Translations under genes and position numbers: made by a program | Notes under the pieces: model-generated | Seen by the model: the letters and a program-made list of their open reading frames with translations, nothing else | What the model was told of the DNA's origin: nothing | Database searches by the model: none | Assembly: GCA_016215155.1 (NCBI GenBank) | Contig: JACRLQ010000020.1 | Location: forward strand, 1-52,059 | DNA: 52,059 bases | Reading direction: 5' to 3' | From: Nitrospirota bacterium | Lineage (GTDB): Bacteria > Nitrospirota > Thermodesulfovibrionia > Thermodesulfovibrionales > UBA6898 | Shown here: piece by piece, positions 9,645 to 25,073 of the stretch | Layout: the number at the start of each line of letters is the position of its first letter | Position numbering within the stretch: the first letter of the stretch is position 1

Positions 9645-10702
9645 AAACGCATGGCGGCAATGTTTATACGGCCTCACTGGCAACGGGTATCCCCGTAACA
9701 CGCCTGCTGGATTTCAGCGCTTCGATTAATCCCCTCGGCCTTTCAAAGGCGACAGTCGCTGCCATAAGAGAGGGAATTGGTCTGGTCCCTCATTATCCGG
9801 AGCCCTTCGCCGGGTCGCTCGCCTCCGCTATAGCGGGACATTTCAAAATCTCTGCCGCCTCCCTCCTATGCGGAAACGGGAGCACAGAGCTTATTTATCT
9901 TATACCGAGGGTGCTTAAACCAAAGACCGTTCTGGTTACGGCCCCTGCTTTTTCCGAGTACGAAAAGGCGTGCGGAGCAGGCAGTATCAGACCGAAAATT
10001 AAAATTCTCGCGTTGAAAAAGGAAGACAATTTCGATATAGATCCGGCGAGGTTCATCCAGTCGATGAGAGGCTGTGACATGGCCTTTCTCTGCAATCCCA
10101 ATAATCCTACAGGGAGACTTCTCAGGAAAAAAGACGTTATCAAAATCGCCGTGGCCGCCCGGAAATCAGGATGTTACCTTGTCGTCGATGAGGCGTTTAT
10201 CGATTTCTGCCCAAATGAATCAGTTATACAACAGGTCAAACGAAACCCTTTCCTTATAGTCCTCCGGTCGATGACCAAGTTCTATGCCCTCGCGGGCCTT
10301 AGGATCGGGTTCGGCGTCTTCCCGCTTAAGCTGGCCGCTGAGATTAAAAAACAGAAAGAACCATGGACGATAAATATTATCGCCGATATGGCGGCAAGGG
10401 CCGCTCTTGAGGACTACGGATACAGACTTAAGACCCTTCGGATCATGAAGCTCGAAAAGCGGTTTATGGAAAAAGGCCTGTCGAACATGGGCATTACATT
10501 CGTCCCCTCAGAGGCAAATTACTATCTGCTCCGGCTTAAAAGCGCGGCGGAGGTCAGACGCACTCTGGAGTCGAAGGGAATTCTTGTAAGGGACTGCTCT
10601 AATTTCGAAGGTCTTGACGGGACATATATCCGGATTGCTGTCAGGTCAAGGGCGGAAAATTCAATGCTGCTTAGGGAGCTGTCGGGTATATGCGCGGGAT
10701 AG
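9641..10702 (+). CDS. cobD: Threonine-phosphate decarboxylase CobD
   Basis: This PLP-dependent aminotransferase-fold enzyme (fold type I, histidinol-phosphate aminotransferase relatives) decarboxylates L-threonine phosphate to 1-amino-2-propanol phosphate, the substrate of CbiB. Seen: HGGNVYTAS and LDFSASINPLG at the N-terminus, CNPNNPTGRLL near residue 148, VVDEAFIDFCP, and SMTKFYALAGLRIGFG with the PLP lysine. Placement directly after cbiB with ATGA overlap supports CobD rather than HisC. It overlaps cbiA by 13 bases. Confidence 0.93.
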   Translation: MKTHGGNVYTASLATGIPVTRLLDFSASINPLGLSKATVAAIREGIGLVPHYPEPFAGSLASAIAGHFKISAASLLCGNGSTELIYLIPRVLKPKTVLVTAPAFSEYEKACGAGSIRPKIKILALKKEDNFDIDPARFIQSMRGCDMAFLCNPNNPTGRLLRKKDVIKIAVAARKSGCYLVVDEAFIDFCPNESVIQQVKRNPFLIVLRSMTKFYALAGLRIGFGVFPLKLAAEIKKQKEPWTINIIADMAARAALEDYGYRLKTLRIMKLEKRFMEKGLSNMGITFVPSEANYYLLRLKSAAEVRRTLESKGILVRDCSNFEGLDGTYIRIAVRSRAENSMLLRELSGICAG

Positions 10703-12111
10703 TTATAGCGGGTACCCACAGCGGCTGCGGAAAGACGACCATCACGCTCGGCATACTTGCCGCCCTTAAGAAAAAAGGGCTTAAGGTCCAGTCGTTTAAG
10801 ACCGGCCCTGATTTCATCGACTCCGGCCTTCACCGTATGATCACGGAAAGACCTTCCCGGAACCTCGACCTCTGGATGTGCGGTGAAGACTATGTAAAGG
10901 ATTGCTTCCGCCGCAATTCGGCTGACGCCGATATCTCAGTGGTAGAGGGTGTCATGGGGCTTTATGACGGGTCTCTCAGCACCGCCTCTCTTTCTGCCTG
11001 CCTTGGCCTGCCGGTCATTCTTGTGATCGATGCCTTCGGCATGGCGGAGACAGCCGGGGCTATAACAAAAGGTTTTCTCCAGAGCGCCTCTGACAAGGGA
11101 ATAAATTTGGCAGGTGTTATTTTTAACAGGGTAGCATCTGAAAACCACCTTAGTCGTCTGATCGGCGGGGTACGGGATATCAAGGTCCTCGGGCATCTCC
11201 CCAGGGACCTTGATTTCGAAATCCCTCACAGGCATCTCGGACTGACCACGGCGGAGGAGTATCCCCTCGCTGAGGAAAATATCGGCCGACTCGCGGACAA
11301 CGTATTAAGGCATATTGATATTGAGGAAATTGTAAAAATTCGTCACTCCGGTAAAAACGGGAGTCAAGAGACCTGCAACCTCCATAAAAGACTGGATTCC
11401 GGCTTACGGCCTGCCGGAATGACGGCACAAATCAGATTGGCTGTAGCCCGTGACCGGGCCTTCTGTTTCTATTATGAAGACAATCTGGACCTTTTGAGGG
11501 CAGCGGGCGCCGAACTTGTTTCATTCAGCCCTCTGTCCGATACCGCTCTGCCGGAAAATATTTCGGGGCTTTATATAGGCGGAGGATATCCGGAGCTATA
11601 TGCCGGGCAGCTTTCCAAAAACGGAGTAATGCTCGATGCCATAAGGGCATGGGCGGAATCCGGAAGACCTCTTTACGCGGAGTGCGGGGGCCTCATGTAT
11701 ATCTCCGAAGGCATACATGATTTTGACGGCAACTTCTTCAGGATGGCAGGTGTCTATCCCTTCGAGACGCTGATGAAAAAAGGGAGGGCAAGGCTGGGCT
11801 ATCGTGAGGTCATGCTTAAAGAAGACTGTATCGCAGGTAAAAAAGGACAGAGGCTCCGGGGCCACGAATTTCACTATTCCGAGATCGTAACGGAGACCAT
11901 GAAGGCCTCTTCCGATCGGACCCTTTACTCACTCATGAACAGCTCGGGGGACATCCTTTCAGACGAGGGCTTTTCTCAGAAAAAAACCCTCGCCAGTTAT
12001 GTCCATCTCCATTTCGGAAGCAACCCCGGCATAGCTTCGGAGCTTGTCAATTCATGCAGAGCTGTTGTCCCCTCTCCCCTGGAGGGAGGGGCTAGGGCGA
12101 AGGGGATTTAA
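10690..12111 (+). CDS. cbiA: Cobyrinate a,c-diamide synthase CbiA, with repeat-derived insert
   Basis: CbiA amidates the a and c side chains of cobyrinate using ATP and glutamine. The N-terminal domain has the P-loop GTHSGCGKTT at residues 7-16, FKTGPDFIDSGLH and VEGVMGLYDG. The C-terminal amidotransferase has YIGGGYPELYA, YAECGGLMYI (Cys nucleophile) and SYVHLHFGS (His). Residues 218-245 are encoded exactly by an 84-bp palindromic repeat element (11341-11424), sitting in the linker between the two domains. The last 16 residues (AVVPSPLEGGARAKGI) come from another palindromic repeat, which also supplies the reading frame to the stop. Both insertions avoid the catalytic parts, so the enzyme is probably functional. 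Confidence 0.93.
   Translation: MRGIVIAGTHSGCGKTTITLGILAALKKKGLKVQSFKTGPDFIDSGLHRMITERPSRNLDLWMCGEDYVKDCFRRNSADADISVVEGVMGLYDGSLSTASLSACLGLPVILVIDAFGMAETAGAITKGFLQSASDKGINLAGVIFNRVASENHLSRLIGGVRDIKVLGHLPRDLDFEIPHRHLGLTTAEEYPLAEENIGRLADNVLRHIDIEEIVKIRHSGKNGSQETCNLHKRLDSGLRPAGMTAQIRLAVARDRAFCFYYEDNLDLLRAAGAELVSFSPLSDTALPENISGLYIGGGYPELYAGQLSKNGVMLDAIRAWAESGRPLYAECGGLMYISEGIHDFDGNFFRMAGVYPFETLMKKGRARLGYREVMLKEDCIAGKKGQRLRGHEFHYSEIVTETMKASSDRTLYSLMNSSGDILSDEGFSQKKTLASYVHLHFGSNPGIASELVNSCRAVVPSPLEGGARAKGI
11341..11424. repeat. 84-bp palindromic element inserted in frame in cbiA
   Basis: The element begins CGTCACTCCGG and ends CCGGAATGACG, an 11-bp inverted terminal pair with one mismatch. It includes CTGGATTCCGG, typical of bacterial CGTCATTCC...GGAATGACG interspersed repeats. 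Its length is exactly 28 codons, so cbiA stays in frame. A repeat of the same type, with ends CGTCACCCC and GGGAATGACG, lies at 36102-36174 outside genes. Confidence 0.8.
12067..12105. repeat. Palindromic GC-rich repeat at the cbiA 3' end
   Basis: TCCCCTCTCCCCTGGAG followed by GGAGGGGCTAGGGCGAAGGGG forms an imperfect palindrome of the CCCTCTCCC type also seen at 21853-21894 and in cbiD. It encodes the last residues of CbiA. Confidence 0.65.
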
Positions 12112-12150
12112 TGTTTAGTAATTCGATCCAATTGAAAGGATAATATAACA

Positions 12151-13155
12151 ATGGAACATATAATACTCATCGGTCACGGAAGCCCGAAAAAAGAGGCCAA
12201 CAATATGGATATTGTCGGGCAGTTACTCCATGGCGCCATCCACCCGGGATGCTCAAACTCGTGCGTGCGCTCGGCATACCTGGAATTCGGTAAACCCGAC
12301 ATCATGGGCGCGATTAAACAATGCGTCGAGGACGGGGCAAAAAAGATAATCGCCCATCCTTATTTTTTGAGCTCCGGCATGCATGTTACAAAGGACATCC
12401 CTGAAATAATCGCCGGGGCAAGAGGCATGTTTCCGGATGTTGAGCTTTTATATACCGAACCGCTCGGCATACATGACAAGCTCGTGGAAATAGTAATCGA
12501 GAGGATAAAAAACGTCAGATTCAACGTCCCTCTTGATATCGAAAAAAGGAGCTTCGAGATAATCTCCGAAGAGACGGACTTAAGCGGCCTGACTTCGGAA
12601 CAGGCGCCGATCGTAAAGAGGGTCATTCATTCCACCGCCGACTTTGAGTTTAAGAATAACCTGGTCTTTCATCCTGATGCGGTCAGGGCCGGCGTCGAAG
12701 CGATAAGGGCGGGCAGGGATATTCTTACCGATATAGAGATGGTCAGGGCCGGGATAAATAAAAAGCTTCTCGACCAATGGGGGGGCAGGGTCATCTGCGG
12801 AATAACTGACGATGAAGTCGTTAAGATTTCAGAGACGACGGGACGCACCCGTTCGGAAATAGCAATGGAGATGGGGCTCACTGATAATATCGGCATAGTT
12901 GCCATAGGCAACGCTCCCACGGCCCTTTTGAAGGTGATCGAGATTTTAACAGGCGAGGGCGTATCGCAATACGCCCCTACAAATTCTATGCCTCTTATTG
13001 TCGGCGTACCTGTGGGTTTTGTGAAGGCGCTTGAGTCAAAGGCCCTGCTTGCCGCCCAGAATTTCCCGTTTATTACAAACCTCAGCAGAAAGGGCGGAAC
13101 ACCGGTGGCAGTGGCCATAGTAAACGCCCTCCTTAAAATGGCCGCGGAAAAATGA
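12151..13155 (+). CDS. cbiXC: CbiX-CbiC fusion: cobaltochelatase plus cobalt-precorrin-8 methylmutase
   Basis: Residues about 1-125 are a short CbiX-type chelatase that inserts cobalt into sirohydrochlorin: LIGHGSPKKEAN with the metal-binding His near residue 8, AHPYFLSSGMHVTKDIP with the second His, and EPLGIHDKLV. Residues about 130-334 are CbiC, which migrates the C11 methyl to C12 to form cobyrinate: IVKRVIHSTADFEF with the catalytic His, FHPDAVRAG, DIEMVRAGI, AIGNAPTALL and GVPVGFVKALESKALL. The fusion joins the first and the last ring-modification steps of the pathway. A 39-base gap before it, with AAAGGA 12 bases ahead of the ATG, is the widest gap between genes of the operon; an internal promoter is possible but not seen. 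Confidence 0.9.
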   Translation: MEHIILIGHGSPKKEANNMDIVGQLLHGAIHPGCSNSCVRSAYLEFGKPDIMGAIKQCVEDGAKKIIAHPYFLSSGMHVTKDIPEIIAGARGMFPDVELLYTEPLGIHDKLVEIVIERIKNVRFNVPLDIEKRSFEIISEETDLSGLTSEQAPIVKRVIHSTADFEFKNNLVFHPDAVRAGVEAIRAGRDILTDIEMVRAGINKKLLDQWGGRVICGITDDEVVKISETTGRTRSEIAMEMGLTDNIGIVAIGNAPTALLKVIEILTGEGVSQYAPTNSMPLIVGVPVGFVKALESKALLAAQNFPFITNLSRKGGTPVAVAIVNALLKMAAEK

Positions 13156-13901
13156 GAAACAGACTTGCAGTTTCACTTTTCACTTTTCACTTTTTACCCT
13201 GTGTTGTCCCTTCCGCATACGCAATGCATATCTCCGAAGGGATATTGCCTTTTAACTGGGCCGCTCTCTGGTTTGCCGTTGCCGCGCCTTTTGTTGCATG
13301 GGGGCTTTTGAGATTCAACAAAATCTCATCCGTGGATCTGTCGTTTAAGCCCCTTGTGGGCCTTCTGGCCGCGGTAGTCTTCATTATCTCCTGCATGCCG
13401 GTGCCTGTCCCTACCGCGGGCACATGCTCCCATCCCTGCGGCACAGGGATATCGGCTGTTCTTCTTGGACCGGCGTTAAGCATCCTGATCGCCTCTGCGG
13501 CCCTGCTCATCCAGGCGCTCTTTCTTGCCCACGGAGGGCTCAGCACCTGGGGCGCGGACATCCTATCGATGGGAGTGGTCGGGTCGATTACGGGTTTCCT
13601 TGTATTTAAGTTCTTGCGTGTTATAAAAATGAACATCTCAATCTCAGCCTTCATGGCCGGTCTGATGGCCGACTGGGCAACATACCTTACGACATCTGCG
13701 GTTCTTGCTTTAGGGATCAGAGGAGATGCGCCGTTTTTGCCTCTTTTCTGGAAAATATCCGCGGCCTTTATTCCGGCTCAGCTCCCCCTTGGAATACTCG
13801 AAGGCGCGATGACCGCTGGGATGGTTGTATTGCTTTACAAAAAACGGCCCGACCTGCTTGTCAAGATGCGGGTCCTGAAGCCCGAAGAGGTGACTCCATG
13901 A
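13152..13901 (+). CDS. cbiM: Cobalt ECF transporter substrate-binding subunit CbiM
   Basis: CbiM is the membrane S-component of the CbiMNQO cobalt importer. The mature family start MHISEGILP appears at residue 25, not 1. It is preceded by a 24-residue hydrophobic leader ending SAYA, which looks like a signal peptide cleaved just before Met-His. This matters because the N-terminal Met-His of CbiM coordinates Co(II). Other motifs are VPTAGTCSHPCGTG with Cys/His and the hydrophobic helices of the family. The leader is partly encoded by tandem CACTTTT repeats (13174-13195). It overlaps cbiXC and cbiN by 4 bases each. Confidence 0.92.
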   Translation: MRNRLAVSLFTFHFLPCVVPSAYAMHISEGILPFNWAALWFAVAAPFVAWGLLRFNKISSVDLSFKPLVGLLAAVVFIISCMPVPVPTAGTCSHPCGTGISAVLLGPALSILIASAALLIQALFLAHGGLSTWGADILSMGVVGSITGFLVFKFLRVIKMNISISAFMAGLMADWATYLTTSAVLALGIRGDAPFLPLFWKISAAFIPAQLPLGILEGAMTAGMVVLLYKKRPDLLVKMRVLKPEEVTP

Positions 13902-14233
13902 AGGTTGAAGGGGGAAGGTTGAAGGGGGAAGGAACAGGATCAGCATTGCTTTTTATAGTTTCGCTTGCGGCCTCTTGCCTGCTTATTACCAATGTTGTTA
14001 TTGCCGCTGATAAGTGGGAGGGGGTCGATAAATCGGTCGTCGAAAAATATGCCGCAGACCATGGCAGGCAGCCCAGAGAACCCCTTATAAACACCGATCA
14101 GGGGGACCTGCTCCTTTTTGTCTTTCTCGTTGCCGGGACGGCCGGAGGTTTTGCCGCCGGATATTACTGGAGGGTACTGACCGAAAAAAAACGTTCTGAT
14201 CCCCGGAAAGACAAGAGTGGGGGACGGGGCTAG
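13898..14233 (+). CDS. cbiN: Cobalt transport protein CbiN-like small subunit
   Basis: This small 111-aa protein has two hydrophobic segments, residues about 15-36 (ALLFIVSLAASCLLITNVV) and about 68-90 (LLLFVFLVAGTAGGFAAGYY), with a roughly 30-residue periplasmic loop between them and a basic C-terminus. That topology and its place between cbiM and cbiQ fit CbiN, which stabilises CbiM and stimulates cobalt uptake. Similarity to classical CbiN is weak, so it could be a functional analogue. The first 14 residues (MKVEGGRLKGEGTG) are encoded by tandem GAAGGTTGAAGGGG repeats and are not CbiN-like. ATG at 13898 overlaps the cbiM stop. Confidence 0.65.
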   Translation: MKVEGGRLKGEGTGSALLFIVSLAASCLLITNVVIAADKWEGVDKSVVEKYAADHGRQPREPLINTDQGDLLLFVFLVAGTAGGFAAGYYWRVLTEKKRSDPRKDKSGGRG

Positions 14234-14236
14234 ACT

Positions 14237-14992
14237 ATGCATGTATTCCGGGACATCGATAAACAAAACTCCTGGCTTTCGGCAATGGACGCCAGGGTGA
14301 AGCTGGTATTTGCCCTGGCTGTGCTTTGCATGGTCATCAGCTATAAAGGCTTCGCTTTCCCTCTGATGGTGCTCGCCTGCTGCCTCGGGGGCTGCCTCAT
14401 GATAAGGGTGCCGCTTCGTAAATTTCTTCTGAGGTTTTCGGAGCCTATGCTTATTGCATCTGTTGTTATTATCCTTAAGTTTTTCTTTTCCGGCCAGGAG
14501 GCCTTATTTTCGGCCCGGTTCGCCGGCATCACGATAACCGGATATACTGATGGACTCAGGGAAGGCCTCGCAATAGCATGCAGGATCATGGGAGCCGTCT
14601 CGGTCATGGCCTTACTTGGCTTTACAACATCATTTACGGACCTGATGTCCGCGCTTTCGTGGTTAAGAGTGCCTAAGGGTTTTGTAGAAATTCTCATGTT
14701 CGCCTACCGCTATATATTCGTGATCTTCGAGGATGCGCAGGTCATATATACCGCCCAGAAAAACCGGCTGGGCTATGCCGGTGTAAGGAGGGGCCTCGTG
14801 TCTTTCGGCACGCTCGCCGGATCTCTTGTGCTCAAGGCATTTGAACGGAGCCATGCCATAACGGTCTCGATGATTCAGCGCGGGTATGACGGCAATATCC
14901 CGATGCTTCAGCACAGACCCTTCAGGCCGCTTGAGGTATTTGTATCGATATTGACTGTATGCGTTGTGGGAGTTGCATGGAAAATACTGTAA
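14237..14992 (+). CDS. cbiQ: Cobalt ECF transporter T-component CbiQ
   Basis: CbiQ is the transmembrane coupling subunit that links CbiM to the CbiO ATPase. It has the family's N-terminal amphipathic start (WLSAMDARVKLVFALAVL), several membrane helices, and the C-terminal coupling helices with the conserved Ala-Arg-Gly type motif region (LKAFERSHAITVSMIQRGYDG is seen in parts: KAFERSH and MIQRGYDG). The 251-aa length is normal. It begins 3 bases after the cbiN stop and its end overlaps cbiO. Confidence 0.92.
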   Translation: MHVFRDIDKQNSWLSAMDARVKLVFALAVLCMVISYKGFAFPLMVLACCLGGCLMIRVPLRKFLLRFSEPMLIASVVIILKFFFSGQEALFSARFAGITITGYTDGLREGLAIACRIMGAVSVMALLGFTTSFTDLMSALSWLRVPKGFVEILMFAYRYIFVIFEDAQVIYTAQKNRLGYAGVRRGLVSFGTLAGSLVLKAFERSHAITVSMIQRGYDGNIPMLQHRPFRPLEVFVSILTVCVVGVAWKIL

Positions 14993-15831
14993 GACTGTAC
15001 ATGGACATAAGGTCCTTCAAATATCCCGATGGGACGGTCGCCCTGTCGGACATGCTGATCGAGATTAAAAAGGGTGAGTTTGTCGGCATCCTCGGCTCAA
15101 ACGGTTCGGGCAAGACCACCTTTCTGAAGGTCATGGACGGCCTTTTCAAGGACGTAGATGGGGTCGTAATGCTGGACGGCACTGACATAAAAAAACTTAC
15201 ACCAGGGGAGATCTACCGGAAAGTCGGCCTTGTATTTCAAAACCCGGATGAACAGCTCTTTGCGCCGACCGTATTTGAAGATGTATCCTTTGGCCCCCTT
15301 AATATGGGTTTCTCCGGGGCCGAGACGGCAGAACGTGTCGAAGGGGCCCTGAGGGATGTTGATATGGAGTCCTTTGCCAAAAAGCCGATCCATAACCTCA
15401 GTTTCGGCCAGAAAAAAAGGGTATGCATTGCGGGCCTTCTTGCGATGGGCCACGAGATACTTCTGATGGATGAACCGACGGCCGGACTTGATCCCATGGG
15501 TGAGTACCGTATGATGCGACTTCTTACTGAACTTAACCTCAGAAAGGGGGTCACGATAGTGATGGCAACCCACAGCGTCGATCTTGTCCCGATATTTCTG
15601 AGCAGGCTCTTTATACTAAGCAAGGGGAGACTGATACGGGGTGGTTCGCCCGAGGAGGTCTTCACGGCCCCTGATGATATGGAACAGGTCAAGCTGAGGC
15701 TCCCCCATATCGCTGATATGATCTACAGGCTCAAGCACGAGGACGGGATAGGGTTCGAAAAGATACCGCTCAGTATCGGTGAGGCCCGGAGGGAGATATT
15801 AAGGATAATGGAAGAGGGGAAAAAAGGCTGA
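14977..15831 (+). CDS. cbiO: Cobalt ECF transporter ATPase CbiO
   Basis: CbiO is the ABC ATPase of the cobalt importer. Motifs in order: Walker A GSNGSGKTT, the Q-loop FQNPDEQLF typical of ECF ATPases, signature LSFGQKKRV, Walker B LLMDEPTAGLD and the switch His in MATHSVD. The ATG at 14977 (MENTVRLYMD) has GGGAG upstream and overlaps the end of cbiQ by 16 bases; an earlier ATG at 14959 and a later one at 15001 are possible. It is followed 3 bases later by cobA. Confidence 0.95.
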   Translation: MENTVRLYMDIRSFKYPDGTVALSDMLIEIKKGEFVGILGSNGSGKTTFLKVMDGLFKDVDGVVMLDGTDIKKLTPGEIYRKVGLVFQNPDEQLFAPTVFEDVSFGPLNMGFSGAETAERVEGALRDVDMESFAKKPIHNLSFGQKKRVCIAGLLAMGHEILLMDEPTAGLDPMGEYRMMRLLTELNLRKGVTIVMATHSVDLVPIFLSRLFILSKGRLIRGGSPEEVFTAPDDMEQVKLRLPHIADMIYRLKHEDGIGFEKIPLSIGEARREILRIMEEGKKG

Positions 15832-15834
15832 ATT

Positions 15835-16353
15835 ATGCGCAGAGGATATATACAGGTCTATACAGGTACGGGCAAAGGGAAGACTACCGCGGCGCTTGGG
15901 CTTGCGATGAGGGCCGCCGGCGCCGGGATGAAGGTGTTGATTATACAGTTCATCAAAAAAAGAAGATGCTCTGAACATAAGGCCCTTGAAAGATTTGAGG
16001 ACCTTATAACGATAAAACAATACGGCGAGGGGTTCATACTTAAAAGAAAGCCCAGCTCCTCCGACATTGAAGCCGCGAAGGCCGGACTTGAGGAGGCAAA
16101 GCAGGCAATACAGTCCCGCCTTTTTGGTATGGTTATCCTCGACGAGGCCAATATTGCGGTCAACCGGGGCCTCATAAGCCCTGATGAACTTGTCGGGCTC
16201 ATGGAGATGAAACCCGGGACAATGGAGCTCGTGATTACCGGCAGGTACGCTGACGAAAAGATCATCGAAAAGGCCGACCTTGTGACCGAAATGAGAGAGA
16301 TAAAACACTATAAAGAAAAAGGAATAAAGGCAAGGCGTGGCATCGAGTACTAA
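15835..16353 (+). CDS. cobA: Cob(I)yrinate a,c-diamide adenosyltransferase CobA (BtuR)
   Basis: This ATP:corrinoid adenosyltransferase adds the 5'-deoxyadenosyl group to Co(I) corrinoids. It is 172 aa, of the BtuR/CobA/CobO family: YTGTGKGKTTAALGLAMR (P-loop) at residues 9-26, IIQFIKK, VILDEAN as Walker B and LVITGRYA near the C-terminus. It follows cbiO by 3 bases and overlaps the GTG start of cbiD by 17 bases. Confidence 0.95.
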   Translation: MRRGYIQVYTGTGKGKTTAALGLAMRAAGAGMKVLIIQFIKKRRCSEHKALERFEDLITIKQYGEGFILKRKPSSSDIEAAKAGLEEAKQAIQSRLFGMVILDEANIAVNRGLISPDELVGLMEMKPGTMELVITGRYADEKIIEKADLVTEMREIKHYKEKGIKARRGIEY

Positions 16354-16437
16354 AAAATTAAGGACCGGCTTTACTACGGGAGCGTGCGCCGCTGCAGCAG
16401 CCAAGGCAGCGACCATGCTGCTACTTCAAAGCAGGGT

Positions 16438-16473
16438 CCCTCCCGCCCCTGACCACGTATCAGGCGGAGAGGG
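16438..16473. repeat. Palindromic repeat inside cbiD (first)
   Basis: CCCTCCCGCCCCTGACC and CAGGCGGAGAGGG are imperfect inverted arms. The segment encodes VPPAPDHVSGGEG, which has no counterpart in ordinary CbiD at this loop between an N-terminal helix and the next strand. Confidence 0.6.
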
Positions 16474-16654
16474 AAAGGTTGAGTATGTCGAGATCCCCTT
16501 CCCCGACGGAAGCAGGCATGCTTTTGCTATTATCCATCCGTCACTGACCACTGACCAGGATTCACCAGTTGCCAGGGCATCGGTGATCAAGGATGCAGGA
16601 GACGACCCTGATGTAACGAATAAGGCTGAGATAATAGCTGAGGCAAGATTGCTT

Positions 16655-16696
16655 CCCTCCGCCCGCCCTGCTCCCCCCGAGGGAGAGGGCAAGGGA
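16655..16696. repeat. Palindromic repeat inside cbiD (second)
   Basis: CCCTCCGCCCGCCCTG with GAGGGAGAGGGCAAGGG. AGGGAGAGGGCAAGGG at 16680-16695 is the exact reverse complement of CCCTTGCCCTCTCCCT at 21863-21878, so the two belong to one repeat family. It encodes PSARPAPPEGEGKG in frame. Confidence 0.7.
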
Positions 16697-17338
16697 AATA
16701 ATGAAGCCCGAAATACTGTTTTAATCAGAGGCGGCAAAGGGGTTGGCAGGGTGACCAAGCCGGGACTTTCGGTCCCTGTGGGTGAGCCGGCCATTAATCC
16801 GTCGCCCAGAGAGATGATAAAAAAAGCGGTTGCCGAGGCGCTGGAAGGATACGCGCTTCCGGACGCTGAGGTAATCGAGATAACGATCTCTGTACCTGAG
16901 GGAGAGGAACTTGCAAAAAAGACCCTCAATGCCAGACTCGGCATTATTGGCGGGATCTCTATCCTCGGCACGTCCGGAATCGTACGGCCGCTATCTGCCG
17001 AGGCGTGGACATCGAGCATTACAGCGGCCATGGACGTGGCAAGGGCCACAGGCTGCCGTGAGGTAGTACTGTCCGCCGGAAGACACACGTACGGCATGGC
17101 GCGATCGATCTCGGGCAGTGTGTCGCACACCTCAACCGCATGGGGATCGCTGTCCCAAAGGAGAGGGATTTCAATACCGCGCGGGAAATCTATGATTTTC
17201 TTATAAACACCTATGGGCTATCCTTGCCGATGCTCCGGAGGGTCTGTGTTTCCGCAAAGAAGTACGCGGAAGGTATTACAGGGGGTGTCCCGGTCGTTAC
17301 GCATCTTGTAACCTATGACGGGGATATAATAACTGACA

Positions 17339-18625
17339 GTGAATAAACTCCATGTCATGGGAATAGGCTACAGGCCGCTTACAGATCGCTGCGCGGAGGT
17401 CCTCAGTAAGTCAGATGTGGTCCTCGCGTCAAACAGGCTTCATGAGGTATTCATGCGCTATGAGGAGTTTCCTCTATTTGAGAAAAAGCTCAAGATCATA
17501 AATAATGTCGGAGAGACGATGGAATTCATCCGCGAAAATCTTGGTGAGTCCTCCATCGTGCTTCTTGCCTCGGGCGACCCGCTGTTTTTCGGCATAGGCA
17601 GGATGGCGGTCAGGGAATTCGGCCCTGATTCAGTCGAAATAATCCCCGATCTCTCAAGTATTCAGCCGGCCTTCTCGGCGATCAAGGAGACCTGGGACGA
17701 CGCCTTTTTGATCAGCCTTCACGGAGGGCCTGACCCGAACAAAAGACGTAGACTTAATTACGGGCTCTCTGATCTTCCTTCGCTGCTGCGGCTGCACCGC
17801 AAGATTGGTATACTGACCGACAGGGAAAATTCTCCCGTTGCCATTGCAAAGGCACTAGGGCGGGGAGAGGGCAGTCAGGCGGGCAATGAGGGGCCTGAGG
17901 ACATGATTTATGTATGTGAGAGGCTCGGATATCCTGATGAAAAGATCACCGTTGGGACTCCGGCGGAAATTGCTTCGGGGTCATTTTCAGATCCAAATGT
18001 CGTGATAATAAAAATGACCGGCTGGGTTGAGGAAAAATCTTCAGGCAATAATTCAACCACGGGGTTCGGCCTGACCGAGGATGAGATCGCCCACACCCGG
18101 GGCCTCATTACGAAGGACGAGGTCAGGGCCGTATCGATACATAAGTTAAGGCTTCCGGATGAAGGGGTGCTCTGGGATATCGGCGCGGGCTCGGGGTCGA
18201 TATCGATCGAGTCGGCGAGGATCTGTCCCCGGCTGAGGGTCTATGCCATAGAAAAAAATGATCTGCGCCTTTCGGATATACTGACGAATATAGCTTCTTT
18301 CGGCCTCCGGAACCTTGAGGCGGTCAAAGGTGAAGCGCCTGACATCCTAAAAGATATGCCGGTCCCTGACAGGGTCTTCATAGGAGGCGGAGGAGACCGG
18401 CTGCCGGATATCATGCGCGCTGTAATCGGGAAGATGGAAAAAGGGATAATAGTTTTAAACGCGATATCCCTCGAAACCCTCAATACCGCCATGCTTATAA
18501 TGTCTGACAGCGGACTTGATCCCGAAGTCTCACAGATCTCGGTTTCGAGATCGAAGGTCGTAAGCGGACAACGGCATATGACCGCGCTTAATCCCATATT
18601 TGTCGTAAGAGGTGTGAAAAAATGA
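17339..18625 (+). CDS. cbiET: CbiE-CbiT fusion: precorrin-6B/7 methyltransferase and decarboxylase
   Basis: This 428-aa protein joins CbiE (residues about 1-205, C5 methyltransferase) with CbiT (about 235-428, C15 methylation with decarboxylation of the C12 acetate), as in CobL. CbiE motifs are VMGIGYRPLT and LASGDPLFFGIG. The CbiT SAM-binding motif is LWDIGAGSGSISIESARI, then AIEKN and RVFIGGGGDRLPDI. GTG at 17339 overlaps the tail of cbiD by 8 bases. A Gly-rich segment near residue 175 (GRGEGSQAGNEG) may be repeat-derived. Confidence 0.93.
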   Translation: MNKLHVMGIGYRPLTDRCAEVLSKSDVVLASNRLHEVFMRYEEFPLFEKKLKIINNVGETMEFIRENLGESSIVLLASGDPLFFGIGRMAVREFGPDSVEIIPDLSSIQPAFSAIKETWDDAFLISLHGGPDPNKRRRLNYGLSDLPSLLRLHRKIGILTDRENSPVAIAKALGRGEGSQAGNEGPEDMIYVCERLGYPDEKITVGTPAEIASGSFSDPNVVIIKMTGWVEEKSSGNNSTTGFGLTEDEIAHTRGLITKDEVRAVSIHKLRLPDEGVLWDIGAGSGSISIESARICPRLRVYAIEKNDLRLSDILTNIASFGLRNLEAVKGEAPDILKDMPVPDRVFIGGGGDRLPDIMRAVIGKMEKGIIVLNAISLETLNTAMLIMSDSGLDPEVSQISVSRSKVVSGQRHMTALNPIFVVRGVKK

Positions 18626-19341
18626 AAAAAGGAAAGCTTTATGTAATAGGTGTCGGCCCGGGAGACCCGGAGCTGCTTACGATAAAGGGCCAGCGGCTTC
18701 TTAATTCCGTCTCCTCGATCTGTGTGCCCAAGGGCAGGGAGGAGGGCAGCAGCCTTGCGCTTTCGATCGTGAGCAAGGTTATTGATCTCGATGGTAAAGA
18801 AATTATCGAGGCCCATTTCCCTATGAGAAAAACGAGAGACAAAGAGCATGGGGACGAACTCGATATAAAGTGGAACGAGACCGTTGACATCGTGATGGCA
18901 AGACTGAATTCAGGCAAGGACATGGCCTTCATCACGATAGGCGACCCAACGATATACAGTACTTTTTTCTATCTATATGACAGGCTCCTAGGGATCGCCC
19001 CTGACCTCGATGTGGAGATCGTCCCGGGGGTCTCATCGATCAATGCCTCGGCCGCGAGGGCAAGGATCTCACTTGGGCTTGCAGACGAAAAGATTGCTAT
19101 ACTGCCGGCAACGTATGTCGCAAACCTAAAAGACATACTGGCTAAATTCGATACCGTCGTCCTTATGAAGGTCCACAGGGTCTTTGACAAGGTCGTTGGT
19201 ATTTTGGATGAGATGGGACTTTTATCAAACGCGGTCTATATAGCAAGGGCCGGGATGGCCGACGAAAAGATTTTTACGGATATCAGAAATATCAGGGAGG
19301 ACGACTTAAACTACTTTTCCCTGATGATCGTAAGGAGATGA
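18622..19341 (+). CDS. cbiL: Cobalt-precorrin-2 C20-methyltransferase CbiL
   Basis: CbiL methylates C20 of cobalt-factor II/precorrin-2, the first methylation after cobalt insertion. The uroporphyrin-III-type methyltransferase fold is shown by VIGVGPGDPELLTIKG at residues 8-23, FITIGDPTIYST near 97 and IVPGVSSINASAA near 130. The 239-aa length is typical. The ATG overlaps the cbiET stop (ATGA). The alternative, another tetrapyrrole methylase, is less likely because CbiF and CbiH are accounted for elsewhere and VCVPKG-type CbiL residues (ICVPKGREEGSSLAL) are present. Confidence 0.93.
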   Translation: MKKGKLYVIGVGPGDPELLTIKGQRLLNSVSSICVPKGREEGSSLALSIVSKVIDLDGKEIIEAHFPMRKTRDKEHGDELDIKWNETVDIVMARLNSGKDMAFITIGDPTIYSTFFYLYDRLLGIAPDLDVEIVPGVSSINASAARARISLGLADEKIAILPATYVANLKDILAKFDTVVLMKVHRVFDKVVGILDEMGLLSNAVYIARAGMADEKIFTDIRNIREDDLNYFSLMIVRR

Positions 19342-19346
19342 TGGAT

Positions 19347-20105
19347 ATGTCCATGGTTTATTTTATCGGCGCGGGGCCGGGTGACCCGGAACTCATCACA
19401 GTTAAGGGAAGGAGACTGCTCGATAGCGCGGATGTCGTTATCTATGCCGGCAGTCTTGTCAACCCTGAAATCCTCAAAGGCATATCAGCGGAGATCCACG
19501 ATTCGGCCTCCATGGACCTCGAAGAGATCATCGCTGTTATCGAGCGGTCCGTTACGAAAGGACTTATGGTCGTCAGACTCCATACCGGCGACACCTCCTT
19601 TTATAGCGCAATATCCGAACAGATAGAGAGATTGAGGCAATTGGATATAAGCTTTGAGGTGGTCCCGGGAGTCTCGTCCGCGCTTGCGGGCGCGGCCGCC
19701 CTCGGACAGGAGCTCACCATACCCGAGATAAGCCAGACAGTGATCTTTACCCGCATGGAGGGGCGCACCCCGGTCCCCCCGCTTGAGCGGCTGGGAAGTC
19801 TTGCCGGGCACAGGGCGACGATGGTCATCTTCCTCAGTGTCGGGATGGTAGAGACGGTAAGGGACGAGCTCCTTAAGGGGTATGACGCGGAGACCCCGTT
19901 TGTAGTAATCGAGAAGGCCTCATGGCCAGGGCAGAAGATCGTAAGGGGGAGACTAAAGGATATCGTCGAAATCGTAAAAGAGGCGGGGATTAAAAAGACC
20001 GCGCTCATCTATGTCGGAGAGTCCCTGAAGGCCTCGGAGGGCCCTCTGGGAAAGGAATCGAAGCTCTATAACAAGGACTTCAGCCATGAGTACAGAAGGC
20101 AATAA
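19347..20105 (+). CDS. cbiF: Cobalt-precorrin-4 C11-methyltransferase CbiF
   Basis: CbiF methylates C11 of cobalt-precorrin-4. Seen: YFIGAGPGDPELITVKGRRL, VIYAGSLVNPEIL (typical of CbiF/CobM), RLHTGDTSFYSAI, EVVPGVSSALAGAAALGQEL and FTRMEGRTPVP. Several start codons cluster here (19338, 19341, 19347, 19353). I chose 19347 because AAGGAG ends 9 bases before it. 19338 would overlap the cbiL stop. The 3' end overlaps cbiGH by 20 bases. Confidence 0.93.
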   Translation: MSMVYFIGAGPGDPELITVKGRRLLDSADVVIYAGSLVNPEILKGISAEIHDSASMDLEEIIAVIERSVTKGLMVVRLHTGDTSFYSAISEQIERLRQLDISFEVVPGVSSALAGAAALGQELTIPEISQTVIFTRMEGRTPVPPLERLGSLAGHRATMVIFLSVGMVETVRDELLKGYDAETPFVVIEKASWPGQKIVRGRLKDIVEIVKEAGIKKTALIYVGESLKASEGPLGKESKLYNKDFSHEYRRQ

Positions 20106-21852
20106 CATAGCATTATTTTTCATCACGGAGAAAGGCCGCCTCCTTGCCCAAAAGCTTGCCGGACTATATCCGGATATGAAGATTACGAAGTACTCAGCGG
20201 CCTCGGTCGCCAAAAAATGGCAGGAGCACAGGGGCTTCATATTTATCATGGCAGCCGGGATTGTTGTAAGGACTGTCGCACCGCTATTGAAGGACAAAAA
20301 GACCGACCCTGCAGTAGTCGTTCTCGATGAGGCAGGAAGGTTCGCGATAAGTCTCCTGAGCGGCCATATCGGCGGGGCGAACGAGTTGGCTTCGGAGATT
20401 GCCGGGTTTCTGGGGGCAGAGGCGGTAGTCACAACCGCGTCTGATGTAAACGGTCTGGTTTCAATTGACCTTTGGGCGCAAAAAAAAGGGTTGGTCATCG
20501 AAGACTGGGAGATGCTGCCTCATGCCGGAAGGCGCTTTATTGACAGTGGGTCGCTTAAAGTATACGACGAGACAGGGATAGACCTTCCGCCGGGATTTAC
20601 GAAAACCGATGGACCCGCTGATGCGGACCTGCTGATAACCAACAAAAATCTGCCTTCAGTCAAAGGAGGCCTTTACCTGAGACCGAAGAACCTCGTTATA
20701 GGAATTGGCTGCAATAGCGGGACATCGGAAAAGGAGATCGAACTCGCTGTAAAAAGGGTCCTCAAGGAAAATGACCTTTCTTTCAATTCGGTCAGCCTGA
20801 TTGCGACGATCGACCTTAAGGCAGAAGAACCGGGGCTTCGAAAATTCTGCGCCGAATATTCACTCGATCTTATTACGTTCAGCCCGAATGAGTTAAACTC
20901 GGTAAACGGCGTGGCTGAGTCCGCTGCCGCCTTTAAGGCCACGGGGGCAAAGGCCGTGGCCGAACCTGCCGCCCTGCTCGGCGCGGGTTCCGACAGGCTT
21001 CTTGCAAAAAAACGGAAGTCCGGAAATGTTACCATAGCTGTCGCTGAAATAAATAAAGGAGTTAACGCAGTGGAAAAAGGCAAACCGGATAAAACAGGAA
21101 AAATTTACGTCGTCGGGACCGGGCCGGGTGATATATCCCATATAACACCTTACGCGCAGCGGGTCATAAAGGACTCGGACGTGGTGGTAGGCTACGGCAC
21201 TTACATCGAACTTATCAAAGACCTGCTGAAAGGCAAAGAGGTCTTCTCTACGGGGATGACACAGGAGATAGACAGGTGCAGAAAGGCTGTAGAGCTTGCC
21301 TCGGGAGGCAGGACCGTGTCGGTGATAAGCGGAGGCGACCCTGGTATTTACGCGATGGCCGGGCTCGTCTTTGAGCTGCTGAGACAGCAGGGCGAGTCAG
21401 CCCCAATCCCTTCGGTCGAGATAGTCCCCGGCATATCGGCGCTCAACGCCTGTGCTTCAAGGCTTGGGGCGCCTCTTATGCATGACTTCGCCTCGATCAG
21501 CCTGTCCGACAGACTCACCTCCTGGGAGGTCATCGAAAAAAGGCTCGAAGCCGCCTCAATGGCTGACTTCGTGATCGTGCTTTATAACCCCAAAAGCAAA
21601 GGCCGCACGGAGCAGATCGGAAAGGCCCGGGACATTGTCATGAAACATCGGGGTCCTGATACTCCGGTTGGCATAGTGCGGGGCGCCATGAGGGAAAACG
21701 AATCGATCGTAGTTACTGACCTTAGGCATATGCTTGATGCGGAGATCGACATGCAGTCGAGCGTTGTTATAGGAAACTCTAACACGTTTATCTGGAACAA
21801 CCTTATGATCACTCCAAGGGGATATGAAAAGAAAAAGCAGTTCAGTAAATAA
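20086..21852 (+). CDS. cbiGH: CbiG-CbiH fusion: cobalt-precorrin-5A hydrolase and C17-methyltransferase
   Basis: Residues about 1-330 are CbiG, which opens the delta-lactone and releases the C20 unit as acetaldehyde: FIMAAGIVVRTVAPLLKDKK, VVVLDEAGRFAISLLSGHIGGAN, VIGIGCNSGTS and the C-terminal VNGVAESAA region. Residues about 338-588 are CbiH, which methylates C17 and contracts the ring: VVGTGPGDISHITPYA, VVGYGTYIELIKD, VISGGDPGIYAMAGL, EIVPGISALNACASRLGAPL, FVIVLYNPKSKGR. The two act in neighbouring steps, so the fusion is sensible. It overlaps cbiF by 20 bases and the next gene by 29 bases. Confidence 0.93.
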   Translation: MSTEGNNIALFFITEKGRLLAQKLAGLYPDMKITKYSAASVAKKWQEHRGFIFIMAAGIVVRTVAPLLKDKKTDPAVVVLDEAGRFAISLLSGHIGGANELASEIAGFLGAEAVVTTASDVNGLVSIDLWAQKKGLVIEDWEMLPHAGRRFIDSGSLKVYDETGIDLPPGFTKTDGPADADLLITNKNLPSVKGGLYLRPKNLVIGIGCNSGTSEKEIELAVKRVLKENDLSFNSVSLIATIDLKAEEPGLRKFCAEYSLDLITFSPNELNSVNGVAESAAAFKATGAKAVAEPAALLGAGSDRLLAKKRKSGNVTIAVAEINKGVNAVEKGKPDKTGKIYVVGTGPGDISHITPYAQRVIKDSDVVVGYGTYIELIKDLLKGKEVFSTGMTQEIDRCRKAVELASGGRTVSVISGGDPGIYAMAGLVFELLRQQGESAPIPSVEIVPGISALNACASRLGAPLMHDFASISLSDRLTSWEVIEKRLEAASMADFVIVLYNPKSKGRTEQIGKARDIVMKHRGPDTPVGIVRGAMRENESIVVTDLRHMLDAEIDMQSSVVIGNSNTFIWNNLMITPRGYEKKKQFSK

Positions 21853-23134
21853 CCTCCCCTCACCCTTGCCCTCTCCCTCAAGGAGAGGGGGTGACGTCTG
21901 CTCCGGAAACGTCGCCTTTTTATGGGATGAATCATTTCTATGGGGAATTATGGCTTATAATGCCCTCTTAAAAGCAGGACTGCCGTTTGATCTGGTTAGT
22001 TCAGACGACATAAAAAAGGGGCAGCTCGAAAATTATACCATGCTTTTTGTGCCCGGCGGATGGTCGTCAAACAAGCTCAAGGCGCTCGGGGACGAAGGCA
22101 TCGAAGCTGTCCGGAGGTTTGTCCGGGATGGCGGCAATTATCTGGGTTTCTGTGGAGGGGCCGGGCTTGCAACCCGGGAAGGCATCAGCCTTCTTGATAT
22201 TCGTCGGAAGCCCACAAAAGAAAGGGTCCCGAGCTTCAGCGGCGGGATCGCGCTTTCGACAAGGCAACATGCCATCTGGGGCGGCATACGCAAACCGGTT
22301 TTCCATGCGTGGTGGCCGCCCCAGTTCGATATATGCGATGAAGATGTCCGGGTCCTGGCATCATATAAAAAAGCTTTGCCTGATGCCTTCACTTCGGATC
22401 TGTGCATAGGGGATGTCGGCCCACTTTCTGACTGGGCTGAGCTCGAAAAGACATACAGGATCAACCTGGACCCGGAGCGCTTGTCAGGCGAGCCCGCGGT
22501 GGTCTCAGGTAAATGTGGGAAAGGGACAGTGGTCCTTTCACTCATACATTTTGATACCCCTGATGACCCGGATGCGAAAACGGTGCTAATAAACCTTTGG
22601 AACGTCCTCTCCGGCGGTAAAACCGCAAAGACAAAACAGGCCTATTGCCGGACTGCCAAATCTGAGGGGGCGGCCCTTGACATCCGGACTAAAACCCTTC
22701 TGGACGATCTCGACAATGCCGTGGATGACCTTATAACTTTTGGAACCCGGAACTTCCTCTGGTTTTGGAGAAGCCCGCTTCTTCTACAATGGCGGCGCGG
22801 CATCCGTGGCCTCGAATACAATACCCTCTATAGCATGGTCCGCTCGGTGACTGATGAATGCAGGCGGGAAAACCTCCCTGAGGATGTTGGAAAGAAATTG
22901 CAAAAAATAAAAAAACGGTTAGTGCCATTCATTGAAAGGTCAAAACAGCTCCTGATATTTGAAAGGTTTGCCATGCAGCAGGGACATATTACCTTCGAAC
23001 AGTCCCACGACTCTAAAATCCAGAGTATAAGGTCGGAACTGTTCTCCTCATCAAAAAGCTATGGTGGACTTTTTAAGGAAATACTTGACGAGATCGATTC
23101 TTTATTATTCGAATTGTTGCATACGAATTATTAA
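21824..23134 (+). CDS. Glutamine-amidotransferase-like protein (biotin-protein-ligase N-terminal type), role unknown
   Basis: Residues about 29-265 resemble the BPL_N domain, a class I amidotransferase-like fold: NVAFLWDESFLWGIMAYNAL, LFVPGGW, VRRFVRDGGNYLGFCGGAGLAT with Cys110 at the nucleophile elbow, VSGKCGKGTVVLSLIHFD with a His in the expected late position. Residues about 290-436 are helical and charged (KTLLDDLDNAVDDLITFG, EILDEIDSLLFELLH) and unrecognised. The start at 21824 lies inside cbiGH, and residues about 10-22 (NLPSPLPSPSRRG) come from a palindromic repeat, so the true start is uncertain. It is the last gene of the cobamide run, so a cobamide-related amidation or hydrolysis is possible but unproven. 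Confidence 0.7.
   Translation: MKRKSSSVNNLPSPLPSPSRRGGDVCSGNVAFLWDESFLWGIMAYNALLKAGLPFDLVSSDDIKKGQLENYTMLFVPGGWSSNKLKALGDEGIEAVRRFVRDGGNYLGFCGGAGLATREGISLLDIRRKPTKERVPSFSGGIALSTRQHAIWGGIRKPVFHAWWPPQFDICDEDVRVLASYKKALPDAFTSDLCIGDVGPLSDWAELEKTYRINLDPERLSGEPAVVSGKCGKGTVVLSLIHFDTPDDPDAKTVLINLWNVLSGGKTAKTKQAYCRTAKSEGAALDIRTKTLLDDLDNAVDDLITFGTRNFLWFWRSPLLLQWRRGIRGLEYNTLYSMVRSVTDECRRENLPEDVGKKLQKIKKRLVPFIERSKQLLIFERFAMQQGHITFEQSHDSKIQSIRSELFSSSKSYGGLFKEILDEIDSLLFELLHTNY
21853..21894. repeat. Palindromic repeat at the cbiGH / amidotransferase junction
   Basis: CCCTCTCCCTCAAGGAGAGGG is an imperfect palindrome flanked by CCTCCCCTCACCCTTG and GGGGTGACG, seen in pieces. It follows the cbiGH stop codon directly and encodes N-terminal residues of the next protein. 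Bases 21863-21878 match the repeat in cbiD. Confidence 0.75.
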
Positions 23135-23357: not shown

Positions 23358-25073
23358 ATGACACATAACTTGTTCCGGCAGTCAATTCCCTTGCCAGCAA
23401 ATTTTCCCGGTACATCGACATTCCGTTTTGTCCGGAACTTCTCCTTTTTTGTTTTGCTTTTTCTATTTTGTTTCATCGTAAGCCCTTCGATACATGCCTC
23501 TGCCGGAACAGTTCAACTGCCTAAAACCGGGCAGACCTCCTGTTACGATTCCTCCGGCGGAGACATACCGTGCGGCAATACCGGTCAGGATGGTGAGTGG
23601 AGAGTAGGGGTTTCAGTGATAGGGGAACGTTTTACCTCCGGCGTGGGCGCGCAGGCTGATTGCGTGACCGACAACCTTACTGGCCTGATGTGGGTGAAGA
23701 CGCCGGACAGCGCTAAGAGATCATACAAGGAAGCTATCGATTACGCCGGGACATTGAATCTCTGCGGTTTTACCGATTGGCGTATACCGACGATCGTGGA
23801 ACTCGAAAGCCTTGTGAATGCGGGCCAGACAAACCCTGCCGCCTGGCTTAATACGCAGGGTTTCAGTAATGTGAAGTCAGACTACTACGGGGCGTCTTCC
23901 AACTACACATATGATCCTGACTATACGTGGCGCCTCTATATGCCCTTTGGCTTTGCGGACCACTGCGATAAGGGTGAAGGCAACTTGGCCTGGCCGGTGC
24001 GCGGCGGGCAGGCAACCGCGACGGCGGCTATCTGGAAGTCCGGACAGGAGATCTGTTACAACTCGTCTGGGACGAGTATCCCATGCGCAGGCACGGGGCA
24101 GGACGCTGATTTAAAGCCCGGCGCTGCCTGGCCTTCTCCCCGGTTCGCCGTAAACGGCGCTGCCGGCACAGTTGCTGATAACCTGACAGGGCTTGTATGG
24201 CTGAAGAATGCGAACTGTTTTGGAGCGGTGACCTGGGACCAGGCGCTTTCGTCCGCCAATAGTCTTGCAAATGGCCAATGCGGCCTTGCCGATGGCTCGC
24301 AGGCCGGAGACTGGCGGTTGCCGAACCGGAAGGAACTTTTTAGCCTCGTTGCTTTCGGCTATGCAGGCCCGGCCCTTGCAAATACGGCCGGGACCCTAAA
24401 GTGGACTGAAGGCGATCCTTTTGACTATGTGCAACCCGCTCCCTACGACTACTGGTCATCTACCACCTTTGCGTATGATCCATACTACGCGTGGGGCGTC
24501 TGGATGTACGCCGGCTATGTGACCTTCAACCATAAGAGTGAAGGCAACTATGTTTGGCCGGTGCGAGGCGGAGAGTCTTTCATTCTTTCGGTTTCCAAAA
24601 CAGGAGCAGGCACGGTGACAAGCAGCCCTGCGGGAATCAGCTGCGGTCTCAAATGCGAGGCGTTTTATTCTCTTAACTCCGTTGTCACATTATCCGCAAT
24701 CCCTGATACAGGTGGACTGATCTTTTCAGGCTGGAGCGACAGCGCAGACTGCTCAGACGGGACTATAAGCATCAGCGCAGACACATCATGCACGGCGACG
24801 TTTACTCTTTGTCAGGGTTCGCCGGTATCGGTCGGAGGCTCTATGTACGATTCGATCAACGCAGCTTTAGCCCCTGCCGCGTCAACCGACACAATCAAAA
24901 TCATGGGGATAAATCAGCCCGAAAACGTGACGCTTGCATCCGGCAAGACCATCAAGCTCGATGGCGGTTATGATTGCAGTTTTACCAGCAAGGTCGATCG
25001 GACAACGACAATCACGGGGTCACTGACGATTTCCAGCGGCACAGTTGAGTTTGACAGCATTGTGATATTGTAG
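23358..25073 (+). CDS. Secreted DUF1566 repeat protein
   Basis: This 571-aa protein has a long signal peptide (hydrophobic FFVLLFLFCFIVSPS, cleavage near SIHASA, about residue 50). Two Lcl/DUF1566 modules follow, at about residues 60-215 and 225-400. Each has the pattern CYDSSGGDIPC or CYNSSGTSIPC, then DNLTGLMWVK or DNLTGLVWLK, DWRIPTIVELESLV or DWRLPNRKELFSLV, and a Trp-Pro-Val-Arg-Gly-Gly end. An InlB-type B-repeat (VSKTGAGTVTSSPAGISCG) at about 405-490 and a short beta-helix-like tail come after. DUF1566 modules are common in secreted proteins of anaerobic sediment bacteria. The tail ends abruptly after VEFDSIVIL, so the protein may be a shortened relative of larger adhesins. Function is unknown. 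Confidence 0.85.
   Translation: MTHNLFRQSIPLPANFPGTSTFRFVRNFSFFVLLFLFCFIVSPSIHASAGTVQLPKTGQTSCYDSSGGDIPCGNTGQDGEWRVGVSVIGERFTSGVGAQADCVTDNLTGLMWVKTPDSAKRSYKEAIDYAGTLNLCGFTDWRIPTIVELESLVNAGQTNPAAWLNTQGFSNVKSDYYGASSNYTYDPDYTWRLYMPFGFADHCDKGEGNLAWPVRGGQATATAAIWKSGQEICYNSSGTSIPCAGTGQDADLKPGAAWPSPRFAVNGAAGTVADNLTGLVWLKNANCFGAVTWDQALSSANSLANGQCGLADGSQAGDWRLPNRKELFSLVAFGYAGPALANTAGTLKWTEGDPFDYVQPAPYDYWSSTTFAYDPYYAWGVWMYAGYVTFNHKSEGNYVWPVRGGESFILSVSKTGAGTVTSSPAGISCGLKCEAFYSLNSVVTLSAIPDTGGLIFSGWSDSADCSDGTISISADTSCTATFTLCQGSPVSVGGSMYDSINAALAPAASTDTIKIMGINQPENVTLASGKTIKLDGGYDCSFTSKVDRTTTITGSLTISSGTVEFDSIVIL

Follow-up and report, generated by a model that had tools for sequence, protein, structure and literature searches.

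How did two stretches of DNA that fold into hairpins come to be read as protein inside cbiD, a conserved gene of vitamin B12 synthesis? The gene lies at 16337–17206 (+) of the window, by which we mean the whole 52,059-nucleotide Nitrospirota stretch that was analyzed, and as assembled it encodes an N-terminal part of the protein (289 aa; Pfam PF01888, CbiD, E 3.2e-75) that includes both segments. Segment 1 (16438–16485, +) codes for PPAPDHVSGGEG, which makes up CbiD residues 35–46 (16439–16474), and segment 2 (16655–16695, +) codes for PSARPAPPEGEG, residues 107–118 (16655–16690). The reading that we favor, with a probability of about 0.8, is that segment 2, and probably also segment 1, stem from short hairpin repeats dispersed in the genome, copies of which came to lie in frame in flexible CbiD loops long ago and have since partly decayed. 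On this reading most such hits on genes have been purged, copies within loops and linkers have survived, and the corresponding loops of relatives have received repeats of this and of other families.

A first-pass annotation of the sequence had described both stretches as palindromic, and folding bears this out. For 46 nt at the best of nine offsets, the hairpin energies are -21.0 kcal/mol for segment 1 and -23.6 kcal/mol for segment 2. Equal or greater stability is found in only 0.5% and 0.1%, respectively, of the 46-nt stretches of the window, sampled every 4 bases.

Aligned with 20 relatives, both segments appear as residues that most of them lack. Loop length varies among these relatives, and in two (L027 and L029) loop 1 includes a long stretch that is free of the repeat described below. 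An AlphaFold model of CbiD, computed from 30 sequences (mean pLDDT 82.6, pTM 0.82), places segment 1 between a helix (14–33) and a strand (50–54), with ten-residue pLDDT means of 70 and 70, and segment 2 between two strands (98–106 and 127–132), with means of 85 and 53. Neither segment has regular secondary structure in the model, and both are predicted to occupy flexible loops. The loop positions rest on this model because the only PDB match, 1sr8, leaves both segments outside its well-aligned part.

A dispersed hairpin repeat family

The repeat to which segment 2 was compared consists of a tail, CCCTCACCCnn, followed by a CCCTCTCCC-loop-GGGAGAGGG hairpin. The tail, CCCTCACCC plus ~2 bases, is found on one side of the hairpin and is common to the copies, which gives the unit an asymmetric form. 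A strict pattern, CCCTCTCCC-N(2-14)-GAGAGGG, returned 18 rows at 13 places of the 3.43-Mb genome, compared with 0 for the reversed-pattern control. All 13 strict copies have the CCCTCACCC tail, two of them with one change.

Variable loop length misplaced the right arms in first alignments, so a covariance model was built from four equal-length copies of the genome, including one in the window. That copy (21857–21889, +; 55.7 bits, E 3.3e-12 in the window, being itself a model-building copy) is near consensus and lies after an ORF ending at 21852; it may form the N-terminus of the ORF at 21824–23134, the start of which is putative. The model search of the genome at E up to 10 gave 69 rows and, after 12 opposite-strand duplicates were dropped, 57 places, 40 of which score 21 bits or more. 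Units are 33–35 nt long; several occur as inverted pairs of ~80 nt, and each member of a pair is counted separately in these numbers. Five of the six reading frames through the consensus are free of stop codons.

The family, which we refer to by its CCCTC tail, is present in 16 of the 27 genomes from the same taxonomic family (E up to 0.01) and, among 198 genomes sampled across the phylum, in 83 (E up to 1e-4). In other phyla, copies were found just outside cbiD in Geomonas propionica (L057) and Albimonas donghaensis (L073). Rfam gave no match to the repeat copies in four loci, nor to positions 12000–22000 of the window (E up to 1). A TPP riboswitch (Rfam RF00059; L123, 2598–2705, -) was seen ~1 kb from a repeat copy of the same genome as the window. 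Elsewhere in that genome, six copies of at least 21 bits lie within 1.6 kb, in both orientations and with no well-scoring ORFs (G000:C86:22176-23778; L008/L012). This cluster is possibly a hub of the family.

Relationship of the cbiD segments to the family

The first-pass annotation had noted 16 bases shared with an intergenic repeat at 21863–21878. The shared word exists, but it spans 17 identical bases and is inverted: 16679–16695 of segment 2 against 21863–21879, within the near-consensus copy at 21857. In the cbiD region, the covariance model scores segment 2 at 17.6 bits on the + strand (E 2e-4) and at 16.9 bits on the - strand (E 3e-4). Its E value is 0.01 when the search space is the window and 0.69 when it is the genome. 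Segment 1 scores 10 to 13 bits, with E values of 0.016 in the cbiD region (at 10.0 bits), 0.81 in the window and 8.9 in the genome.

Could these matches reflect chance, in that Pro/Gly-rich loops written in GC-rich codons tend to look palindromic and to match a GC-rich motif? Segment 1 gives some room for this, given its window and genome E values and the 16 of 400 codon-order shuffles that equal its score with segment 2 excluded, although base shuffles of the segment alone do so in only 3 of 2000 cases. The score of segment 2, in contrast, was not reached in any of 400 codon-order shuffles or 2000 base shuffles (all shuffles were scored with a matrix from nine copies outside the window). The same loop holds better copies in four other loci (L021, L024, L028 and L048), and the window has a GC content of only 51%. 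We regard chance as a very unlikely explanation.

Because of the covariance-model scores and the shuffle results, we assign segment 2 on sequence grounds to the CCCTC family as a decayed copy. Segment 1 is certainly a palindrome, but its sequence is only suggestive of family membership. The earlier claim that both segments derive from repeats holds for segment 2, and both segments resemble insertions.

Copies within other genes

The first-pass annotation had also listed cbiA among the invaded genes and described the genome as prone to invasion of coding sequence. The cbiA gene (10690–12111) does carry a copy at its 3' end (12070–12103, -; 21.8 bits, E 9.5e-4 in the window), which by its reading frame supplies the last residues of the protein, PSPLEGGARAKGI; local alignments of relatives stop before or near the start of this copy. 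In the genome as a whole, 8 of the 40 copies with at least 21 bits lie inside ORFs with Pfam domains, and these are spread over seven genes that carry the repeat in frame. Besides the 3' end of the window cbiA, the carriers are a MoCF-domain gene (an inverted pair, PLTPALSLHGEGDSDIPRPSGERIEVRG), a second CbiA gene (PSPPPSPSGGEG), a MobB-MobA gene (PSPSPSPTGGEG), DnaX (PSPPPSPSMGEG), a ResIII-type protein and a BadF/CoA-activase-type protein. The remaining copies comprise 5 at N-termini that are possibly untranslated, 2 in one unsupported ORF and 25 outside genes, all classes having been assigned by hand.

These numbers indicate depletion, not a propensity to invade: at least 0.81 of the window is coding, yet 8 of 40 copies count as genic, or 15 of 40 with the N-terminal and unsupported cases included. 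With so wide a gap between 8 of 40 and the coding proportion, copies in coding sequence look as if they have been purged and not favored. Coding copies have a mean score of 29.8 bits, as opposed to 36.8 for outside copies (p 0.06).

The comparison with relatives covered the second CbiA, MoCF, MobBA and DnaX genes, and 48 loci were checked with the model. At the homologous place, the repeat peptide is absent from all 15 relatives compared for the second CbiA, from 11 of 11 for MobBA and from 10 of 10 for the MoCF protein, an eleventh MoCF locus not covering the linker. The linkers of these relatives gave no model match except for a weak one in the MoCF linker of L199 (13.3 bits, E 0.46). The second CbiA of one relative (L186) has a 17.3-bit match elsewhere in the gene (E 0.047). 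DnaX is less informative: the linkers vary strongly among the 11 fetched relatives, so the absence of the repeat there proves little. One of them (G003, L220) has its own long repeat-like insert with two matches of 13.8–15.2 bits (E 0.15–0.34). In the dnaX linkers of two different genera (L217 of G000 and L220 of G003), AGTAAAACCCC precedes both inserts, which could reflect either a shared old insertion or a target preference.

Repeats in the same loops of relatives

Among the relatives, loop 3 of CbiD contains better CCCTC copies in three members of one genus, L021 (34.7 bits), L024 (29.6) and L028 (26.5). A deltaproteobacterium (L048; JACRCG010000057.1) has a 23.8-bit copy in the same CbiD loop and, further along the protein, an inverted pair of copies with 26.6 and 30.7 bits. 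A weak match occurs in the CbiD of a member of the Geobacteraceae (L039; 14.1 bits, E 0.78). Overall, in 4 of the 90 CbiD loci searched, cbiD itself contains a copy with an E value below 0.01.

The state of the gene in the window raises the possibility that cbiD is no longer under selection here and therefore collects repeats. The gene is interrupted at 17080–17083, where ~56 residues present in three compared relatives are missing and the frame changes; the C-terminal part (to ~17343) is open in a different frame. The missing residues and the frame change near 17080 mean that this may be a real deletion in a pseudogene or a misassembly. Yet relatives with longer open cbiD ORFs hold repeats in the same loops, and the adjoining cobalamin genes have open reading frames that match the expected Pfam families, which makes loss of selection an improbable cause.

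CbiD loops of relatives also contain repeats of a second kind. Tandem repeats of 7 nt were detected in 12 of 92 CbiD ORFs at p<0.01 against codon shuffles, where ~1 is expected by chance. These represent 11 distinct genes (L029 and L032 being one and the same gene): L021, L024, L025, L028 and L029 from the same taxonomic family, the Nitrospirota-type L033, L034, L036 and L037, and L039 and L053 of the Geobacteraceae. The cbiD of the window itself does not pass this test (p 0.13). In the four Nitrospirota-type loci, several CbiD loops consist mostly of 7-nt tandem repeats with differing units.

A third kind begins with GTAG. Within cbiXC of the window (12151–13155), a pattern search, the reading frame and alignments identify a GTAG-type palindrome, GTAGGGGCGTATTGCGATACGCCC, at 12957–12980 (-). 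Most relatives have a CbiC loop ~5 to 7 residues shorter at this place, but L025 and L033 do not, and the loop of L033 contains PNSELRTPNSS. In the MoCF gene, which carries the CCCTC pair in the genome of the window, three other genomes (G003, G005 and G011) have exact GTAG-type palindromes. Judged by eye, a further genome (G001) has a GTAG palindrome with a mismatch and another (G012) a GGGTCA tandem, while L202, L203 and L204 have none. The MoCF repeats of G000 and G003 differ, and both are preceded by GCGCGGAAA and followed by GGTGGTGTAATTCAGGT. Replacement at one site would fit these two repeats lying between identical flanks in two genera.

GTAG counts do not measure an excess, because the reversed-pattern control was unclean (12 matches against 35 for the motif in the genome of the window, and 15 against 2 in G001). 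Inner complementarity was judged by eye. In G005 the reversed pattern matched 66 times (2 and 64), against 7 for the motif, a sign of a further repeat family in that genome.

Do such observations require insertion at all? Ancestral low-complexity linkers might instead have generated repeats on the spot, through slippage and hairpin-templated mutation. The 7-nt tandems of the CbiD loops are slippage-type sequence, and linker length is variable in most relatives. The CCCTC copies, however, have family members scattered over the genomes in which they occur, unlike local products of slippage, and GTAG palindromes recur in the MoCF linkers of three genomes, with the caveat of the unclean pattern control. 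An origin on the spot is unlikely, in our estimation.

Alternatively, function could keep the segments in place, for example as mRNA hairpins that tune expression of the operon or through a role of the loop in the protein. The hairpins are strong, several cobalamin genes have such segments, and a loop-3 copy is common to three genomes of one genus (G024, G025 and G026). Nevertheless, the copies in the cbiD of the window are decayed, a fourth member of the genus of L021, L024 and L028 (G023, L022) has no CCCTC copy in loop 3, and relatives differ in peptide, repeat family and orientation. We consider maintenance by function to be most improbable.

Insertion followed by decay, the reading that we prefer, would proceed as follows. 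Repeats would disperse across the genome, and copies would arrive by insertion and be neutral. The consensus being GC-rich and mostly open, a copy that keeps the frame would add just a short Pro/Ser/Gly-rich peptide. Selection would remove most copies that land in genes, and those in loops or linkers with a length divisible by three would persist and then decay. Insertion ends and a target duplication are not visible because no near-identical empty site was found. In this bacterial group, the flexible loops of conserved enzymes and the linkers between their domains may be recurrent landing pads, a few positions at which unrelated small repeats (CCCTC, GTAG and 7-nt) arrive, decay and give way to one another time and again; much linker sequence of the group would then be recycled non-coding repeat. 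We judge this to be an even bet.

Comparison with known repeats

Palindromic repeats in frame within genes are already known from Rickettsia palindromic elements (RPEs) and from ORFs that bear repetitive extragenic palindromes (REPs), and the CCCTC family adds another case. According to the available text of PMC10969869, nearly half of the 44 RPEs of R. conorii are inside ORFs, and that of PMC2229807 describes one RPE-bearing enzyme that is translated and active, with altered affinity. The same texts give RPEs a length of ~105–150 bp and term them Rickettsia-specific (PMC10969869, PMC2229807). RPEs and the repeats described here are alike in that palindromic repeats lie in frame within conserved protein genes; CCCTC units differ in being ~33–35 nt (~80 nt as pairs) and in coming from another part of the bacterial tree. 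The RPE-like combination of an in-frame copy and orthologues without it is found for the second cbiA, the MoCF gene and mobBA, and for cbiD when compared with most relatives.

REPs, as presented in the main text of PMC3733652, are hairpins of 20–40 bp that occur as singletons or inverted pairs, mostly between genes and, for a minority, in ORFs of several species. The CCCTC family resembles them in size and distribution, with units of 33–35 nt at 40 places of at least 21 bits, 25 of them outside plausible genes by hand-assigned classes, but the 13 strict copies have neither GTAG nor CGTC at either end. The cbiC palindrome and some of the MoCF-linker palindromes of relatives do start with GTAG, like GTAG REPs. 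The same text describes different REPs at about the same site in recB of two Xanthomonas species; the new angle here, relative to that example as the text gives it, is that several repeat families repeatedly occupy the same loops.

GTAG REP families are often close to genes for RAYT (Y1) transposases, again according to the text of PMC3733652. The CCCTC family differs in this respect: no canonical copy was found in the flanks of Y1_Tnp genes (up to 1.5 kb fetched) for any of the seven such genes of the genome. Across the 27 genomes, CCCTC copy number does not correlate with the number of Y1 genes (Spearman -0.24, p 0.22). One genome, 70% complete, has 60 CCCTC matches and zero Y1 matches. A Y1 (RAYT-type) transposase as the local mover thus finds no support in the flanks or in the 27-genome correlation.

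STRR-like heptamer repeats, as described in the available text of PMC4692102, are tandem 7-nt units, like those in the CbiD loops of relatives. By description, which is the basis of this comparison, the CbiD heptamers differ in lying within protein loops of orthologous genes. Neither ‘CCCTC’ nor ‘Nitrospira’ occurs in the main text of PMC3733652, and word searches of the open-access literature found neither the CCCTC family nor a comparable reuse of loops described.

The CbiD loops and the MoCF linker, with different repeats across genera and, for CbiD, across phyla, form a natural series for studying the origin of new linker sequence and the way in which selection acts as a filter on repeats inserted into genes. 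Repeats scattered through DNA seem to keep feeding proteins with new loop sequence. There is also a warning for annotation: peptides like PSPxPSPxxGEG are repeat-derived, and matches between loops of unrelated proteins may reflect a common repeat alone.

Other repeats in the window

The first-pass annotation had counted cbiP and feoB among the invaded genes. For the CCCTC family this does not hold, as the window model search scores both at chance level: the best match is 9.7 bits (E 0.97) in cbiP, which has no relative in the compared loci, and 7.8 bits (E 2.9), close to the N-terminus, in feoB (26229–28487, -). These two genes and cbiE/T were rejected as carriers on such scores. The feoB gene may carry a repeat of another family, as the FeoB N-terminus, GGDNPPQSPLNLRGD, is similar to what we take to be peptides of another dispersed repeat. 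Stretches of PPLIRGG and SPPLRGGDKGEG, similar to this N-terminus, were seen in L145. Inside the ORF at 23358–25073 lies a 127-nt direct repeat (23881–24571), with the two units 70% identical and 564 nt apart.
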